Shown: piece after piece, positions 2,589 to 11,179 of the stretch
How the letters are laid out: each line of letters starts with the position of its first letter
How positions within the stretch are numbered: the first letter of the stretch is position 1
Source of the DNA: Isotricha intestinalis
Taxonomy: Eukaryota > Ciliophora > Litostomatea > Vestibuliferida > Isotrichidae
Length of the DNA stretch: 11,179 nt
Direction of reading: 5' to 3'
NCBI GenBank assembly: GCA_023807065.1
Contig: JAJJLU010004618.1
Span: forward strand, 1 to 11,179
The notes under the pieces: model-generated
Seen by the model: only the letters and a program-made list of their open reading frames with translations
Databases searched by the model: none
Told to the model about the DNA's origin: nothing
Made by a program: the position numbers and the translations under genes

Positions 2589-3291
2589 TTATTTCAGAAA
2601 GAAGATAGCAGTTGGAATACTTGCATTTAAAGTAGTAACTTTATGATTTAAAGGAATAGAAGCTTTATAATCAGAATTTTTTCTAACTAAAGAATTAACT
2701 CCACTTCCTTCATTTCCTATTACTAGTGCAATTTTCCTTTTATAGTCAATTAAATCATATTCTTGACTTCCTTCACCTGCACTTGCAACAATCCAAAAAT
2801 CTTCTTTTTTAATCTTTATATGTTTTGATTCAAATTCACAACTTGAACAATAGATATTAAAGATTCAGCACCAGTTGCTATTTTTGAAACGTAGTAGTTA
2901 TTTGAACTTTTCGATGACGACCATTAATTATAGTATCAACACCAAAAAGCAACTGAAAATCTGATTATAGAACCAAAATTAACAGGATCATTTAATTAAT
3001 CAAGAATAACAATGTTTGCATAATTATTATCTTTAATATTAAATAAGACAGTTTCTAATTTGGAATAGACAAATTCTTCAACTTAACATACTATTCCTTG
3101 ATGGTTATTAAATGATAATAATTCATTAAGTTTTTGTTGGTGATAAGTTTAACTGGTGTGTTTTTTTCTTTTGCAATTAAATAGGCTTCATTAAATTGAT
3201 GATTTTCATTTAAAAAGACTTGTTTGACATGATTAGTTTCTTTAATTGCATTTAAAGAAGGAATTTTCCAATAAATGATATTATCATTCAT
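2589..3291 (-). pseudogene. rlmB: 23S rRNA 2'-O-ribose guanosine methyltransferase (SpoU/TrmH family), frameshifted
   Basis: This is a SPOUT-fold rRNA methyltransferase acting on large-subunit rRNA. From the ATG at 3291, the start reads MNDNIIYWKIPSLNAIKE, the small N-terminal substrate-binding domain, followed by VKLITNKNLMNYYH. After a frame change near 3112 come HQGIVC-VEEFVYSKLE and then VILD-LNDPVNFGSIIR, which is motif 1 with its conserved Asn and Arg. AFGVDTIINGRHRKV and IATGAESLISIVQV follow, and finally KIALVIGNEGSGVNSLVRKN (motif 2) and IPLNHKVTTLNASI (motif 3). The ~234-residue span matches the family. Frame changes are needed near 3112, 2950, 2885 and 2820. Two in-frame TAA codons (complement of 3083-3085 and 2996-2998) lie where relatives often have Gln. 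The catalytic motifs are largely preserved. It precedes the sigma factor in the same direction, as in Firmicutes. Confidence 0.87.
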
Positions 3292-3670: not shown

Positions 3671-3822
3671 AGCAAATTTGTTATATTGTAGTAATACTAT
3701 AAGATTATGATTTCAATTATTACAATAATTCAATAAACACTAGTAATTCAAGATGAGTATTAAAAAAATGATATACAAACTTTTTTTCTATATAGTAGAC
3801 TAATTAGAAATGAGGAATAATT
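3671..3822. other. Divergent intergenic region between the HTH gene and tig
   Basis: This 152-bp AT-rich spacer lies between two divergently oriented genes, so it should hold promoters for both. Several TATAAT-like strings occur, but the composition makes them uninformative. The only useful signal is GAGG at 3812-3815, placed seven bases before the ATG at 3823, as expected of a ribosome-binding site. Confidence 0.4.
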
Positions 3823-4651
3823 ATGAATATTTTCAGTGGGTTAAAGAGTTTATTTCTTGCTGTAATTGCATCATATACTTTTTGTATATTTTGTGATGGT
3901 CTTGATTCATTACTTGAAAGTACTAAAACAAGTACGGATGAAGTATTCCAAAGATTAATGATGAATTTGCTACAACTTTAACTGGTAAATTTGTTTCAAA
4001 AGTTTAGCTGAATTAAAAAATATAGTTAAAGAACATTTAGTTAAAACTAGTTAAGATAAATATTTAACTGATGTATTAAATGTTATTATTAAACAAATAA
4101 AGAAAGAATCTACTTTTGAAATTCATGAAAAGATTATTGAAGAAAATATTCAAAAGAGAGTTAAAAATATTGAAGATCAAGCTAAGAGTTATCGACTTAC
4201 TCTTGATGAATTCTTAAAAATTCAAAATACTAGCTTAGATACTTCTAAAGAAAATTAAAGAACAAATAATTAATGAAACACATAATTCTTTAATCACTGA
4301 AGTTATTGTAAAAAAGAAAAAATTGTTTTACCAACTAAAGAAGAATTAAGTGAATATCTTGGACTAGTGTTGATGAATAAATTATTAATTTAAATTCTTA
4401 TTTTACTCAACAAGGAAATTAGAAAGAAGAAGCTAATTTTCATGTTCAAATAAGAGTTAATGATAAATTACTTGTTTTAAATGGAATCAAGAAAGAAGAG
4501 AAAAATGCTGAAAAGAAAGAAGATAAAAAAGCAGAAGATAAAAAAGAAGATAAATCAAATAGTAAAAAAGAAACAAAAGAAGAAAAAAAAAGAACCAGCA
4601 AACAAGACTAAAAAAGAAGAAGATAATTGTTTTTTTGCCTTTAATATCTAA
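3823..4651 (+). pseudogene. tig: Trigger factor, C-terminal chaperone domain; N-terminus and PPIase domain missing
   Basis: The C-terminal arm of trigger factor, the ribosome-bound folding chaperone, is recognisable. Near 3950 it reads PKINDEFATTLTGKF, the end of the PPIase-to-arm linker, then AELKNIVKEHLVKTS, IIKQIKKESTFEIHEKIIEE, VKNIEDQAKSYRLTLDEFLK, EQIINETHNSLITEVIVKK and NDKLLVLNGIKKEE. A Lys/Glu-rich tail follows. The ribosome-binding domain and the PPIase body are absent. Instead the reading opens at 3823, behind a good GAGG site, with a hydrophobic segment (LKSLFLAVIASYTFCIFC) that is foreign to the family. Frame changes occur near 3955, 4000, 4250, 4310 and 4360, plus one at an A-run near 4585. 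TAA 4052-4054 falls after LVKTS. The end is uncertain: a frame through the tail stops at 4651, but the natural end may be earlier in the Lys/Glu tail. It lies just upstream of lon, as in Firmicutes tig-(clpX)-lon clusters. Confidence 0.75.
4495..4630 (+). repeat. Lys/Glu/Asp low-complexity tail of tig with long A-runs
   Basis: Purine-rich repeats of AAAGAAGA type encode an alternating Lys-Glu-Asp tail, a common C-terminal extension of trigger factors in AT-rich Mollicutes. The A-run near 4583-4591 coincides with a frame change. The minus-strand image of this tract gives a spurious Phe/Leu-rich ORF. Confidence 0.6.
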
Positions 4652-4688
4652 TTTTTCAGTAGAATAATTGATTTTACTATGCAAAAAA

Positions 4689-4715
4689 TTAGCACTCTAT
4701 GCTCTTTTGTGTTAA
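4689..4715 (+). promoter_or_regulatory. CIRCE-like HrcA operator upstream of lon
   Basis: TTAGCACTC at 4689-4697 is a perfect left half of the CIRCE element. Exactly nine bases later, TTGTGTTAA at 4707-4715 matches the right half GAGTGCTAA at six of nine positions. CIRCE is the binding site of the heat-shock repressor HrcA, and Mollicutes are known to place it before lon, clpB and dnaK. It sits 28 bases before the lon start codon. The left half may double as a -35 (TTAGCA) with TAAAAT at 4713-4718 as a -10 at 18-base spacing, so repressor binding would cover the promoter. The right half may have degenerated. Confidence 0.78.
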
Positions 4716-4729
4716 AATATTATAGTTTT

Positions 4730-4734
4730 GGAGG
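4730..4734 (+). promoter_or_regulatory. Ribosome-binding site of lon
   Basis: GGAGG lies nine bases before the ATG at 4744 and decides the lon start. It is the best Shine-Dalgarno match in the window and supports a bacterial origin for this segment. Confidence 0.7.
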
Positions 4735-4743
4735 ATAACATAT

Positions 4744-7157
4744 ATGAATACCTAAGAAAGTAAGAGATTATCTGTTGTTCTGAATCATCAACAAGTATCT
4801 TTATCTGATTTAGAGATAAAATTATATGTTTCAAATAATTATGATACTAATTTATTTTCAAATTTAAAGGTAAATTATGAATTTGTAATGGCCTATGCCT
4901 TAAGTGATAATGCCTATGGATATTTGATAATTTAATTTTACTTGGAGTTAAATCAATCGGAACTTTACCTAAAATGACTAATATAGATTAAAAAAATAGG
5001 TTTTGTTATTTCTGCTTTTTGTAAAGATGTTGTTGATTTACAAGAATTTGCAATTGATAATTATACAAAAACAATTCATGCAAACTGTTTTCAAAGAACA
5101 TAATTTGTTAGACCAGATAATTTAGTGTATGAAAAATTAGGAAATTTTACAGCAAATTATAGTGAATTAAAAAACAGATATCCTAAACTCCCACCTTTAC
5201 CTGATTTTTCTCAAACTGTCAAAGAAATTAATTATATACCATATCATATAGCAGCTTTTTTAGACTCTACTGCTTATACAAAGATGAGATTACTTGAAAA
5301 AAAGATGTTATTGAAAAATTTAAAATAGTTAGTAAAGAACTTGAAATATTTAATCTTGATGCAAAAGTTGAATTTGATATTAATCAAATGGTTTCTTGAT
5401 AAAAATCAAAGAGAATATGTTTTAAGAGAAAAAATGAAAGTTGCTAAAAATCATCAACTTAAAGAATTTGATGGTGAAGATAAAGAAATGCGTTATGAAA
5501 AAGCATTAACTGAATATCCTGAAAATATTTAAATCTGTATCAAAAATGAATTAACAAGATTTAAAGCTATGCCATCAATGTCTCAAGAAGCACCAATGAT
5601 TCAAGGATATCTTGATTTTACTTGTTGATTTACCTTGGAAAAAATCTTCAACTGATAAAGAAGATTTAAATGATGTTACTAAAGTATTAGAAAAGAATCA
5701 TAATGGTCTTGAAAAACAAAAAGAAAGAATTTTACAATATCTTTCTGTTAAACAGCTTACTAAATCCTTAAAAGCACCTATTTTATGTTTTTATGGAGCA
5801 CCAGGTTTGATAAAACATCTCTTGCAATATCAATTGCTGAGGCTCTTGGTCTTAACTTTGTTAAAGTTGCATTTGGTATATTTCAGATGAGGCTGAAATT
5901 AGAGGTCATAGAAAAACTTATCTTGGTGCAATGCCAGGTAAAATAATTTCATCTATTAATAAATGTAAAACAAATAATCCAGTCTTCTTACTTGATGAAA
6001 TAGATAAAATTAATGGTGGCGATTATCATGGAGATCCTGCTAGTGCATTATTAGAAGTTTTAGATCCTGAACAAAATAAATTCTTTGTTGATAATTATAT
6101 AAATGAACCATTTGATTTATCTAATTTTTTATTTATTTGTTGGGCTAAGGGTGTATCTAAAATTCCTGTTCCACTTTTAGACAGACTTGAAATGATTGAA
6201 TTAAATACTTATACTAAGTTTGAAAAGAAGAAATGGCTAAAAAACACTTAATTAAACTTGAAGAAGAAAATAATGGTGTTAAAGAAAATATGATGACTTT
6301 GACTGATGATACCCTTGACTATATTATTGAATTTTATACTATGGAAGTTGGTGTTAAAACCTTAGAAGAAAATTAGGTACTATTGAGCGTAAATTTGCTG
6401 TTGAATGTTTATAAACCCTGAAGAAAATTAAAAAATTACTATTAATGTTGAAAAAGTAAAGCAATATTTAGGTACTGAAATCTTCCTTCATGACCATAAC
6501 TTAAAGATTCTCAAATCGATATCATTAATGTTTTAGCCTATACTGATTCTGGAAGAAAAGTTTTAAGAATTGAAGTTAATATATTCTCTGGAAAAGGTGG
6601 ACTAATCTTAACTGGTAATTTAGGTTATGTTATGAAAGAAGCTTGTGAAACAGCCTTTTCATATGTTAGAAGTATTGGACCAGAAATTGGTATCCATCCC
6701 GAGCTCTTTGCTAATAATGATATTCATATTAACTTCCCAGAATCAGTAACTCCAAAAGATGAACCTAGTGCTGGTTTAGAAATAGCTTTATGTATCATTT
6801 CTGCTATTTCTAATTTAAGAATTAGAAATGATGTTGCAATGATTGGTGAAATTGATCTTCATGGTAATGCACTTCCAATTGGTGGTTTAAGAGAAAAAAC
6901 AAACTCGGGTAGTAGAGAACATTTAAAAACTATCTTTGTAACAAAAGAAAATAACAAAAATATTTTTGAATTTACCAAATGAAATGACTAGTGTATTAGA
7001 AATTGTCACAGTAAGTAAACTTAGAGATATGTTTAATAAAGTCTTTTTAGAAGATATTACTAAAGAAAAAGATAGAATTGCTAAAATCACTTCCCAGATA
7101 AACAATATAAAAAAAGCAATTCTAAATTTAAAAAGACAGCAAAAAAATAATGAATAG
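4744..7157 (+). pseudogene. lon: ATP-dependent protease Lon, near full span, frameshifted
   Basis: Lon is a cytosolic AAA+ serine protease that degrades misfolded and regulatory proteins. The ~800-codon span matches the family. Blocks in order: substrate-binding N-domain (LILLGVKSIGTLPKM near 4940), DKNQREYVLREKMK (~5398), MPSMSQEAPMIQGYLDF (~5570) with LVDLPWKK, Walker A region 5795-5820, [19 protein letters not shown] (~5888-5942), Walker [10 protein letters not shown] (~5985), [20 protein letters not shown] (~6040), and the protease domain with Ser at 6767-6769 and Lys at 6896-6898 (GGLREK). The Ser-Lys dyad survives. Walker A reads GAPG, frame change, then DKTSLA where Gly-Lys is expected, and the residue two before the catalytic Ser is Glu instead of Gly. 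About ten frame changes are needed, several at A-runs (e.g. ~5300). In-frame stops include TAA 4753-4755, 5101-5103 and 5530-5532. The 3' end overlaps the ysxC start by eight bases. Confidence 0.92.
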
Positions 7158-7722
7158 TACTTTTAGAAAAATTCAATTTATTAAAAATGCCTTAAAAAAG
7201 GAAGATTTTGTCTATGATAAAAAATAAATTACTTTTTTAGGAAGAAGTAATGTTGGAAAATCAACTTTAAATAATTCACTTATTAGTGAAAAGAATTTTA
7301 TGAAGATAAATAAAACTCCTGGAAGAACTATTTTTCTTAATTATGCTTTAATAAATGATAAATTTTATTTTGCTGATTTCCTTGTTTATGGATATGCTAA
7401 AAATAAATTAAAATCTTTTACTAAACTTATGAGTGATTTTTTAGATAATAATTCTGTCCTTTCCAAAATCTATTTATTAATTGATTCAAGAAGAGGAATA
7501 AATGATGAAGAATTTGAATTCATTAATAATTTAAAATCCCTTAATTTTAAGCTTAGTATTATATTTACTAAATGAGATAAATTAAATGCATAGGAAAGAA
7601 GTTTTTTAAATAAAGAAAAAGAAAAAGTCTAAAAATTAAATATTACATATTTTGAAGCTTCTTATAATAACAATAACTTAATTGAAAAAATACAAAAAGA
7701 TATTATTAGTGCTTTAAATTAA
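7150..7722 (+). pseudogene. ysxC: Ribosome-biogenesis GTP-binding protein YsxC/EngB, four in-frame stops
   Basis: This small TRAFAC GTPase is needed for 50S subunit assembly. The frame from ATG 7150 to TAA 7720-7722 is 190 codons, the usual family length, with no net frameshift. G1 is GRSNVGKST (7240-7266). The switch-I region reads KTPGRTIFLNYALINDKFYF, matching the family's KPG-T-LN pattern, and YGYAK follows. G3 should be DLPG but reads DFLV (near 7375-7390). G4 reads FTK-TGA-DKL at 7564-7584. Four in-frame stops occur: TAA 7225, TGA 7573 (Trp is a common Mollicute residue between Lys and Asp here), TAG 7591 and TAA 7630. The start overlaps the end of lon, as in the conserved lon-ysxC operon, suggesting coupled translation in the ancestor. 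Without the G3 Gly the protein would not hydrolyse GTP normally even if stops were read. Confidence 0.9.
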
Positions 7723-7819
7723 ACTGTAATCTCTTCCTTTACATATTTATAAAGAATATTAAATAATATATAATATGTTGTCTATTATTTTTATATAATA
7801 ATTTTTTGAGGTATGTAAG
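7723..7819 (+). promoter_or_regulatory. ysxC-valS spacer with valS ribosome-binding site
   Basis: This 97-bp AT-rich spacer contains two TATAAT strings (7769-7774, 7794-7799), but no properly spaced -35, so a promoter is only possible. GAGGT at 7808-7812 precedes the valS ATG by seven bases. There is no T-box leader signature, although Firmicutes often use one at valS. Confidence 0.4.
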
Positions 7820-8746
7820 ATGAAAGAAATGTCAACGGAATTTAATCATAAAGAAGTTGCAAAAGAAAAAATCAATTTTTGGATTGATAATAAATATTTG
7901 AAGCAAATTAGCTCAAAACAAAAAGAAAAAGCCATTTTCAATGATTATTCCACCTCTAAACCTTACAGGCATTTTACTTATTGGTCATTCTCTAGATAAA
8001 ATTATTATTGATATGATTTGTCGATATAAAAAGATGGATGACTATGATTTACTTTTTTTACCTGGAATCTATCATGCTGGTTATGCAACTTAAGAAAAGG
8101 TTGAAGAAAAATTTGCAGAAGAGGGTAAAAACAAATATGAAATGGGTAGAGAAAAGTCTTTAGAAGAAACTTGAAAGAAAGAAAAATATGCTGAATATAT
8201 AAAAAAAAAAAAACCAATGATATGCCCTTAGTTTATCAATGAATTATACAAAAAAAAGATTCACTCTTGATGAAAAGATCAATAATCTTGTTAATACTGT
8301 ATTTAAATCTTTATATGAAAAAGGAATAATATATCAAGATGAAAGAATTATTAACTGGGATCCTGTTTTATAAACTGCTTTAAGTGATGTTGAAGTCATT
8401 TATCAAGAAGATAAAGGTAAGTTTCAGTATTTTAAATATTATTTTGAAGATAAATCATCTTATTTAGAGATAGCAACTACCAGACCTGAAACTATGTTTA
8501 GTGATCAAGTAGTAGTTGAAATAGTAAAAATAAAAGATTATCTTAAATATATTGGAAAAAAAGTTATTAATCCAGCTAATAATGAATTACTTGAAATTAT
8601 TGGTGATTGTGATTATTATGTTGATCCTGATATTCTTGATACTTGGTTTTCTTCAGCTCTTGCTCCGTTTGGCTTTTTAAATTTTCCTGATGATTGTAAT
8701 TTTTTTTCACAAACGAAAATATTAATTTTAGAAAAAACAAAAAAAT
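7820..8746 (+). pseudogene. valS: Valyl-tRNA synthetase, N-terminal part only, internally deleted
   Basis: This is a class Ia synthetase fragment of ~309 codons against ~870-900 for the family. From ATG 7820 it reads MKEMSTEFNHKEVAKE, then after a frame change near 7935 MIIPPLNLTGILLIGHSLD. The HIGH motif is LIGH, so its first His is lost. LFLPGIYHAGYAT (Asp to Tyr in the DHAG motif), TAA 8091-8093 at the conserved Gln, EKVEEKFAEEGKNKYEMGRE, NYTKKRFTLDEKINN, INWDPVL, TAA 8371-8373 at the conserved Gln, TALSDVEV and ATTRPETM follow. TGA 8172-8174 and 8218-8220 fall at conserved Trp positions. A 13-A run (8201-8213) carries a frame change. After INPANNELLEIIGDCDYYVD the text jumps to PDILDTWFSSALAPFG, omitting roughly 200 residues of the editing domain. 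Family identity is lost near 8715; KMSKS, the anticodon-binding domain and the tail are absent. Confidence 0.92.
8201..8213 (+). repeat. 13-base poly-A run in valS
   Basis: Thirteen consecutive A residues lie between the KYAEYI block and the Gln-Trp block of valS. The reading frame must change across the run, so it is a site of slippage in replication or of homopolymer miscounting. Confidence 0.8.
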
Positions 8747-8762
8747 AAATTAAATAATTAAA
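8715..8762. other. Likely junction between bacterial segment and AT-rich tail
   Basis: Up to about FLNFPDD the valS text is recognisable; the next ~12 codons match nothing in the family and then stop. Three bases into the next block, on the opposite strand, a charged C-terminus ends with a TAA at 8765-8763. Composition, strand and gene style all change across this short interval. The exact breakpoint cannot be fixed without a reference. Confidence 0.5.
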
Positions 8763-9960
8763 TTAATCTTCTTTTTCTTTTTCATTAATAGCTTCTGCTT
8801 TATCAGTAATTTTATTTTCTTCTTCACTATCAACATTTACGTTTCAAGCATGAATTTTAAATTCTCTTGTTTATTCTTCATACATTTCAGGAGTAATAAA
8901 AATTAATTTATGTTCATAAATTTAATAAACCAATTTCAAGTGGTAAAGCCATTTTTTTTCTATATTATTTCCATTATTACTTGTTGAATAATTTGTTTGA
9001 GAATTTTTATTGAATTTATTTAAATAAAGATATGTATTTAAACTAAACCCAAAAAATAATCCTGACATTGTCGTTGATATAATTAAACAAATAAATAAAA
9101 AACAATAAAAGAAAAAATAAATTTCTGAAGAATCTACACAAAATTATTGCATAATCTAAATATTAAAAATATTATTCCAATAACAAAAATTGTTATGAAA
9201 AAATTGAAAGAACCAAAGAAAATCTTCTTAAATGATTAAAATATTTATATTTTTTATAATGATTTTCAGGACTTTTCATAAAAGGACATCCAATAAATAC
9301 CATATAATATTTTTTCCCTATAATTTTAAGATAATTAAAATTCAAATTTATTAAACCTAAATTATTATAATAATCACTTATTTCTGAATTTAAATCTGAA
9401 TATTTAATATTATCAATTAAAACTTTACTTCTAATTCCATTATCATAATATATAAATTTGAATCAAAATGATTACAATAATGGGATCCATTATATAATAT
9501 ATTATATAAATTTAAACCTTCATTTTGATTATTTGAATTAATATTACTTAAATCATTATATGCATATTGTAATTTATTTCCTAAATTAATATCAGATAAT
9601 AATTCATTGAATTAAAACAAAGATAAACTTGTATTTGTTGAAATTGAAGGAATAAATATATCAGTTTCAGAATTATAATTTAAACAAAATTATTTAAATT
9701 TACTTTCGATTCTTCATTTAATATTGTATTATAATATTCTATATAATCACTTTTTTTTCCATTATATTTTTCTCTAAATAATTGATGAAAAGAAATTATA
9801 CTTCTTTGACTTCTTATTACATAAATATATTGATTTTTATAAGTTAAAATTGTTTTTGAATCACAATTTCATTAATTTTATGACATGAATAAATTTTATT
9901 ATAAGTTTTTTTATTACAAATATTTTTTTGCTCAGAAAAAAAAATAGCAGAATTAAATAT
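8763..9960 (-). pseudogene. Possible membrane-protein C-terminal half read with TAA/TAG as Gln; unrecognised
   Basis: I do not recognise a family. Read from 9960 downward with frame changes, the minus strand gives soluble-looking, Asn/Tyr/Ile-rich text such as VIRSQRSIISFHQLFREKYN (~9790), NLGNKLQYAYNDLSNIN (~9580) and MVFIGCPFMKSPENHYKKYK (~9270). Two hydrophobic stretches follow: FNFFITIFVIGIIFLIF (~9200) and CLFICLIISTTMSGLFFG (~9090-9050). The end is charged: YEHKLIFITPEMYEE, TAA 8873-8871, TREFKIHA, TGA 8846-8844, NVNVDSEEENKITDK, closing at TAA 8765-8763. This could be the extracellular domain, last helices and cytoplasmic tail of the protein that begins upstream. No conventional ORF of 60 codons exists, so coding status depends on reading stops as sense, or on decay. 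The low-complexity composition makes any frame look hydrophobic, hence low confidence. Confidence 0.3.
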
Positions 9961-10560
9961 ACAATAACAAGAATCTTTTTTATATCTAGGAACTAAAATT
10001 TATATTTGTAATTAAATTATTATTCTAATTTCTTTGATATAATTTTCTTAAATTTTTCCTGTTTGAGTTTGAGTTCTCATAAATAAAAGCGGACTTATCA
10101 TAATTAAAAGAAGATATAATACTAAAAGTAAAATTTCTATTAACCATTCACTTAAAGAATGTGTTATTTTTATATTATTATTTTTATTGATTTTGTATTC
10201 GGAAGTTTTTTCTCATTTCACTTTTTTATTTTTTTAAATAAATAATGAACAATTTTATTTGAACTTTTTAATTAAATAAATAATTTTTATTATATTCTTT
10301 ACTTTTATTTAAACTTAAATAATTTTTACTTAATTAATATTAAGAAATTTTTTTGGTAAAATGATTAATAATATTCAATAAAAAACTGGAAGGATTAATA
10401 CATATATTACTGAATAATACCAAAATCTAATTTTTAAATATAAATAAGTGAAAATTAAAGAATATAAAGTAATATAACTCTAAGTTAACAATCCAATTAT
10501 ACAAATTATAATAGATAATTTTTTTCATTTAGAACAAATCTTAAAATTAAATAAATAATA
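9961..10560 (-). pseudogene. Possible multi-pass membrane protein, one frame of 200 codons with 12 in-frame stops; unrecognised
   Basis: One frame on the minus strand can be followed for 600 bases. It gives two or three hydrophobic helices, including IRFWYYSVIYVLILPVFY (~10423-10370) continuing across a TGA into ILLIILPKKF, then a Lys/Asn-rich polar stretch (~10330-10160) and a helix IEILLLVLYLLLIMISPLLF (10137-10081) followed by MRTQTQTGKI, TAA 10050-10048, ENYIKEIRI and VPRYKKDSCYC. The twelve in-frame stops are mostly TAA/TAG where Gln would be unremarkable and TGA where Trp fits a helix edge. The alternation of helix and polar loop looks like a real membrane protein, perhaps a channel or receptor of an AT-rich protist, but I cannot assign it. 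Random AT-rich sequence would give about as many or somewhat more stops, so this is not proof of coding. Confidence 0.33.
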
Positions 10561-11179
10561 ACAGAGAATACAGAATTAAAAATATTATTTTCAATTAAAA
10601 TTGTAAAAACCATAATAATTAATCCACAAATTAAAAAAACAGAGAAATTTAAAAACGAAAAATAAAAAATAAACAAGGATGAAATTTTATAAAAATTTTA
10701 CAATATCTTTTAAAGATATTTTGTTCTGAAAAAGAAATATTAATTTCAGCTTTTCTTTAAAAGATTCTTGGATTTTTTTATTTTTATAGAAGAAGAAATT
10801 TCAAAAGCTTTTTCACTATTATTATCATTATTATTCAAAACTTTTATATTTTTGAATTTTTATTTTAATATTAATTAAATCTTTCAATATAAATTTATTT
10901 TTTATTAAAAATATATTTATTAAATTATAATCATTATTTTTAATATTTATAATATTTTCTATATTTAAATAATAATATTAAAATTTGGAAATTTAAAATT
11001 ATTATAAATAAATATATTTCCTTCAATTCTTAATTATTTTATATTTTCTAAAAATGATTTTTAATATATTCATCATATTCATTAAAATATTAAACAATTT
11101 TCATTTTCTATTTTTATTCCCATTTTATGAGCTTCTTTGCAATTTTCCTTTAATATAATATAATTAATTACACCCTAAA
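10561..11179 (-). other. AT-rich tail, possible upstream part of the same membrane protein
   Basis: No ORF or RNA is supportable. Minus-strand fragments in shifting frames include IILKENCKEAHKMGIKIEN at the right edge (~11160-11105), GNIFIYNNFKFPNFN (~11020), KVLNNNDNNSEKAFEISSS (~10840) and a hydrophobic run SVFLICGLIIMVFTILI (~10645-10600). They suggest coding sequence with frame breaks leading into the helices described at lower coordinates. The text is rich in Asn, Ile, Phe and Lys, as expected of any AT-rich DNA, so this is a weak call. Confidence 0.25.

Follow-up and report, generated by a model that had tools for sequence, protein, structure and literature searches.

The window, i.e. 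the whole stretch of DNA that was analysed (11,179 nucleotides), is the entire contig C2054, one of the smaller contigs of a 57.3-Mb assembly with 2153 contigs. Its first 8715 positions form a bacterial part, which opens on the plus strand with the 3′ part of a gene that we take, from a motif, to be purine-nucleoside-phosphorylase (PNP)-like (1–345; open frame, 114 aa). This is followed by a plus-strand stretch spread over several frames (360–1890), which contains an HEFGH motif and is, judged by that motif, presumably M3-peptidase-like. Six-frame scans gave no Pfam match to the former stretch and none at E ≤ 0.001 to the latter. Further downstream lie a broken SpoU-type rRNA methyltransferase gene on the minus strand (2589–3291), with PF00588 in two different minus frames; the C-terminal part of the trigger factor gene tig (3944–4640, plus strand; PF05698), with two in-frame TAA inside and homology to another contig, C1319; and the lon protease gene (4744–7157, plus strand), with 13 frameshifts and five in-frame TAA over 793 aligned codons. 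The engB gene (YsxC/YihA GTPase; 7150–7722, plus strand) occupies one frame with no net frameshift; residues of its DxPG motif are replaced, with compensating gaps in the alignment there. It is followed by the truncated 5′ part of valS (7820–8715, plus strand), and by a junction at 8716, where similarity to host-like DNA begins. An open 120-aa frame on the minus strand (2142–2504) had no Pfam match and may resemble a sigma-70-like factor. No tRNA was found in the window with ARAGORN.

The closest relatives of the bacterial genes, among the matches listed, were metagenome proteins: for engB, P0001 (71%) and P0002 (73%) over 99% and P0003 (91%) over 74%; for Lon, one at 81% over 98% of the searched part; and for ValRS, several at 74–75% over 79% of the searched part. 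The few names given among the nearer relatives read “Bacilli bacterium”. One scan of genome contigs yielded three distant Lon loci at 40–43% identity. A DNA search with window positions 3800–8700 returned 130 matches; those listed beyond the window itself and C1319 all fell within 4466–4630, where tig ends in a Lys/Glu-rich segment, and were discounted as low-complexity matches.

The host-like part and the host code

From 8716 to 10835, the window matches contig C1155 at about 89–91%. C1155 carries an intact 533-aa frame in the standard code, which is membrane-protein-like, and the window holds a broken copy of this region on the minus strand, with its coding part ending near 10216. The valS profile match stops at 8628, and since the similarity to C1155 starts at 8716, the last ~30 bases of the interval 7820–8746 considered in the earlier note belong to the host-like part. 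GC content per 1000 bases is 0.24 in 8001–9000 and 0.16 in 9001–10000.

Compared with C1155, this tail has 129 substitutions (61 transitions and 68 transversions), which are GC>AT biased, and 27 indel events. It carries one-base indels in homopolymers, one deletion of 92 nt, and a cluster of deletions totalling 50 nt. The 80 substitutions within the frame are distributed 31/29/20 over the codon positions, and the codons in register show 12 synonymous, 52 nonsynonymous, and five stop changes (TGG>TAG, GAA>TAA, TTA>TAA, CAA>TAA, and AGA>TGA). The same kinds of stop thus arise in a copy of a standard-code host gene. That the tail is a read of the C1155 locus itself is disfavoured by the 129 substitutions and the 50–92-nt deletions. 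A repeat lies at 10819–11091 (plus strand), with copies of 79–85% near the ends of C1234, C1382, and C2039 and also on C761; it is perhaps subtelomeric.

The code of the host is the standard one. Among its frames of 300 codons or more (14 loci, some overlapping, with frames partly counted twice), TAA is the terminal codon 18 times, TAG twice, and TGA once, and 429 CAA and 115 TGG codons occur in them. The beta-tubulin of the assembly is closest to PDB entries 6u0h and 7miz, which we take to be from Tetrahymena and Toxoplasma. Ribosomal protein L3 had no match in the assembly, which therefore looks incomplete. No telomere was obvious at eleven contig starts inspected, and six telomere-type patterns (CCCCAAT not among them) gave nothing in the loci examined; this would be odd for the somatic genome of a ciliate. 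In PMC11316547, trichostome ciliates, Muniziella cunhai among them, are described as using the standard code with TAA as the commonest stop and a low GC content (26% in M. cunhai). The present host, an alveolate-like protist and probably a ciliate, agrees with them in all three respects, and the pieces examined have 16–26% GC, mostly below the 26% of that species (PMC11316547).

Premature stops in the bacterial genes

The valS part was aligned at the DNA level, in a frameshift-aware manner, to a profile of 50 intact ValRS relatives (P0121–P0170, of 120 listed; first 420 profile columns). The earlier note had described two TAA at near-invariant Gln and two TGA at conserved Trp in this gene, and all four codons are present in the sequence where it placed them (TAA 8091–8093 and 8371–8373; TGA 8172–8174 and 8218–8220). 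Three of the assignments agree with the family: TAA 8091 stands where 50/50 relatives have Gln, TGA 8172 where 48 have Trp and two Tyr, and TGA 8218 where 50/50 have Trp, though it adjoins a frameshift and a gap. The fourth was wrong, as the column of TAA 8371 holds Lys in 42 relatives, Arg in seven, Met in one, and Gln in none. Overlooked at that time were TAG 7909 (Arg in 39/50, beside a frameshift) and five frameshifts over the 262 aligned codons of valS.

For engB, the profile was built from P0001–P0040 of 120 listed relatives. Its four premature stops fall at a Val/Ala/Ser column (TAA 7225; Ile in P0001 and P0002), a Cys/Val/Thr/Tyr column (TGA 7573), a column with Ser at 0.65 (TAG 7591), and a K/L/A column (TAA 7630). 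The lon profile comprised, from 120 listed, those among P0241–P0243 and P0253–P0299 longer than 700 aa. The five TAA of the window gene stand at Y 0.51 (4753), P/A (4989, beside a frameshift), L/I/V/Q (5101), K/Q/R (5530), and S/Q/A (6429). C1319 has a lon copy too, for which the profile was cut to 450 columns, and its seven TAA stand at K/R/L/D/Q, N 0.66, K 0.83, K 0.42, R 0.55/K 0.25, Q 0.90, and Y 1.00.

Damage was not confined to stops. Together, lon and valS have 18 frameshifts, and 67 residues are changed at the 446 near-invariant columns of engB, valS, and lon. Sixty of these changes are single-step, with 46 GC>AT, seven AT>GC, and about 32 transitions. The C1319 lon copy has ten changes in 103 near-invariant columns, about seven of them GC>AT and four of them transitions. 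Point mutation in the bacterial part was thus AT-biased. The transition excess is not general, with 4/10 in C1319 lon and 4/14 among polarised window/C1319 changes.

Expected numbers of stops were calculated with substitution rates from the tail of the window against its intact host counterpart, and codons within about four of a gap or frameshift were left out, which dropped TAA 4989, TAG 7909, TGA 8172, and TGA 8218 of the window. The same filter was applied to the changes at near-invariant columns and to the tabulation by family residue. Over the 1061 clean codons of engB, valS, and lon, 9.3 TAA, 1.5 TAG, and 2.5 TGA were expected, and eight, one, and one were observed. Eight clean TAA in 1061 aligned codons cannot be reconciled with intact standard-code genes, and their number is about that predicted from point mutation at the divergence of the tail. 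Because the rates were drawn from the window's own tail, this agreement in part reflects a similar degree of decay in the two halves.

The predicted sources of TAA were Glu (0.35), Lys (0.19), Gln (0.16), Leu (0.13), Tyr (0.08), and Ser (0.07). Scored against this mutation mixture, TAA as Gln obtained a log2 likelihood ratio of −8.75 over 15 clean TAA (eight from the window and seven from C1319), and 15 CAA codons used as a control scored +22.35; taken singly, 7/15 TAA scores lean to Gln. Tabulation by family residue, as the earlier note had proposed, was run on the window genes and C1319 lon, with a majority residue defined by a frequency of 0.5 or more. Eight of the 15 clean TAA stand at majority columns (Gln 2/21, Lys 2/112, Tyr 2/53, Arg 1/54, Asn 1/51, Glu 0/77, and Leu 0/124), and the other seven at columns without a majority. 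TAA at Lys, Tyr, and other residues accords with the mutational spread which that note had linked to decay; the zero count at Glu does not. The single scores that lean to Gln and the rate of TAA, which is highest at Gln columns, speak against decay, but decay too would give a high rate at Gln, as CAA>TAA needs only a C>T change and this class is the fastest in the tail. A simple mutation model is at odds with the result for Glu, which was predicted to be the most frequent source although 0/15 TAA have a Glu majority in their column. TAA 7225 also speaks against decay, since no single substitution leads to it from the residues of its column.

For TGA as Trp, the score of −4.63 rests on one clean TGA, both Trp-site TGA having been filtered out. 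At the Trp columns of the window genes and C1319 lon, TGG occurs four times (of five aligned TGG in these genes) and TGA twice, and one further TGA falls at the Cys/Val/Thr/Tyr column. This reassignment is neither shown nor needed, since TGG>TGA is one G>A step. As for the choice between decay and reassignment, which had been left open, the mixed columns and the frameshifts favour decay, and the columns disfavour TAA as Gln, a reading that is not supported given its negative likelihood ratio and the Lys/Arg residues at one of the two key sites.

Bacterial blocks and host pseudogenes on other contigs

C1319 matches positions 3944–5867 of the window (tig–lon) at 83% DNA identity. There, tig–lon adjoins split or truncated rpoB and rplL, both split over frames, and an rplJ match, and then host-like DNA with an open 442-codon frame. 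The differences between the two lon copies are distributed 28/25/71 over the codon positions (304 codons). The even distribution over codon positions seen in the host-like tail is thus not found among the bacterial differences, and we read their third-position excess as earlier bacterial divergence. No stop is common to the two lon copies, the stops standing at different columns, and the frameshifts differ in place, with one exception: near column 188 each copy carries an indel, though not of the same size. The third-position excess and the lack of a common stop suggest that the window and C1319 represent separate captures from related bacteria. One insertion later duplicated into both contigs is disfavoured by the same excess and by the differing stops and frameshifts. 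Around position 2600 of C1319, the external-1 domain of rpoB almost directly adjoins trigger factor, the N-terminal domain of which was not found; the arrangement is probably an internal rearrangement of the bacterial block.

Bacterial genes were also seen on C1848, namely YgjP, SpoU, a class I tRNA synthetase with anticodon domain over three frames, which may be IleRS-like, and an S4/pseudouridine synthase gene. The bacterial stretches of the window, C1319, and C1848 are each located at the end of the contig or close to it. The 70-kb C933 has bacterial genes between a cyclic-nucleotide-binding (cNMP) gene at 36.5–37.4 kb and MORN repeats at 68.0–68.9 kb; the interval 60–66 kb lies outside the part that was read. 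This block (about 42.2–53.7 kb) contains L1, RHS/LysM, List_Bact repeats, clpX–clpP–tig, and an amino-acid kinase gene; clpX, clpP, and tig each extend over several frames, and a frame of 651 codons has stayed open within the bacterial part. The MORN gene itself is split over two frames.

Host genes are broken in a similar manner. Two alpha-tubulin copies are full-length or nearly so, one with three stops (CAA>TAA twice) and five indels (C1843), and the other with seven stops at W, G, G, Q, S, Y, and R (C2063). Changes in these pseudogenes include Q>TAA, W>TGA, Y>TAA, and R>TGA. The mismatches of C1843 (22/16/122 by codon position) are mostly at third positions, indicating mostly older divergence under selection and a recent death. 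Several intact alpha/beta tubulin pairs exist elsewhere in the assembly.

Searches for three markers did not point to a complete bacterial genome in the assembly: bacterial DnaA, the bacterial GyrB C-domain, and bacterial RpoB domain 6 were not found, the only two RNA polymerase beta domain-6 genes having open frames of ~1200 codons and being taken as host.

Origin of the stops and comparison with known systems

We consider it likely that the stops reflect decay of captured bacterial DNA in a protist genome under AT-biased mutation, and not a new code. Nuclear-type DNA of a standard-code alveolate protist, probably a ciliate, would have taken in part of a Bacilli-type genome (PNP-like, M3-peptidase-like, SpoU, tig, lon, engB, and valS), which at 8716 meets the dead copy of the host gene. 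With no selection on the bacterial genes in that setting, AT-biased point mutations, slippage indels, and deletions would accumulate. Sense codons one step off, such as CAA, AAA, and TAT, would drift to TAA, and TGA would arise from TGG, TGT, and other codons, so that stops at conserved Gln and Trp would be the visible part of this decay. In the assembly, bacterial genes appear joined to host DNA both at 8716 of the window and on C933; the join is presumably present in the living genome, and the DNA may have come from food or a symbiont. Decay explains the stops, the frameshifts, the mutation spectrum, and the join to host-like DNA.

The strongest competitor, which we still regard as improbable, is an artefact, namely a chimeric contig from a food or associated bacterium, of low coverage and left uncorrected, in which errors made the stops. 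The one-base homopolymer indels of the tail, the small size of the contig (11,179 b), and the position of the bacterial stretches at or near the ends of C2054, C1319, and C1848 would fit such an origin, as would the 28/25/71 distribution, by which each lon copy came from a once functional bacterium. However, substitutions in the tail outnumber indel events by about 5 to 1 (129 to 27), and raw long-read error is unlike such a substitution excess with GC>AT bias and 50–92-nt deletions. The near-even spread of the tail's differences from C1155 over codon positions, the full-length broken host tubulin in the same assembly, and the split bacterial genes between host-type genes on the 70-kb C933 also argue against it. 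A simple chimera with a live bacterium is disfavoured, as the bacterial genes are broken.

Reassignment of TAA (and TAG) to Gln and TGA to Trp, in a living bacterium or in the host, is highly improbable. It draws on TAA 8091 at an invariant Gln, the two TGA at Trp columns (8172 and 8218), and the seven single scores leaning to Gln, but TAA also occurs at Lys/Arg (8371), Tyr (4753), and Val/Ala/Ser (7225), and on C1319 at Lys, Asn, and Tyr. The combined score is against Gln, all three standard stops terminate the host frames, in which CAA and TGG are in use, and the same genes are frameshifted (lon 13, valS 5), which no code explains. Even less credible is a living, degenerating endosymbiont chromosome with pseudogenes in a contig wrongly joined to host DNA, which close intact metagenome relatives would suit (engB up to 91% over 74%, among the matches listed), but which is opposed by the frameshifted lon and valS and an engB with four premature stops, by the split rpoB and rplL on C1319 and a tig with in-frame TAA, which a living cell could hardly bear, by the failure to find bacterial DnaA, GyrB C-domain, and RpoB domain 6 in the assembly, and by decay of the joined host part too.

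Known stop reassignments include TAA and TAG as Gln in ciliates and TGA as Trp in Mycoplasma (code 4). The window is like these in having TAA at a Gln column and TGA at Trp columns, and unlike them in having TAA at Lys, Tyr, and other residues, frameshifts, and a standard-code host. Nuclear copies of organelle or symbiont DNA of the NUMT type are non-functional, captured, and neutrally decaying; the window resembles them as dead DNA that was captured and is decaying, but its donor would be a Bacilli-type bacterium and not an organelle. A further comparison is TvLF, a 34-kb Peptoniphilus harei-like cluster in Trichomonas vaginalis, which is described by Strese et al. (2014, PMC4082486) as recent, with stops in eight genes over the strains studied and 11/27 genes equal in length to those of P. 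harei. Both cases comprise a multi-gene Firmicute block in a protist genome, with informational genes among those gaining stops (PMC4082486). Unlike TvLF as so described, the present blocks have most recognised bacterial genes broken, lie on several contigs, come from more than one bacterium, and adjoin a host pseudogene; TvLF was confirmed by PCR in further strains, whereas the join in the window is known from the assembly alone (PMC4082486). In a literature search of partial coverage, we found no paper describing bacterial blocks that decay in the genome of a ciliate-like organism.

Beyond decay of captured DNA at this locus, we raise a wider idea that is possible but that we rather doubt: the protist genome, perhaps a germline (micronuclear) part expelled from the working nucleus, may be a graveyard that holds dead host genes and has repeatedly taken in long blocks of bacterial chromosomes, at least twice from the same Bacilli lineage (the window and C1319) as well as from another bacterium (C933).

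The analysis disposes of a misleading sign of a new genetic code in bacteria and shows how inserted bacterial DNA in decay can mimic such a code. If the joins are real, the contigs show informational genes of bacteria entering a protist genome in blocks and dying there. Comparison between blocks could then date their uptake and decay, and contigs of this kind in protist assemblies would be neither clean contamination nor useful transferred genes. If the graveyard idea holds, these blocks would form a lasting record of how a protist that feeds on microbes takes up DNA.
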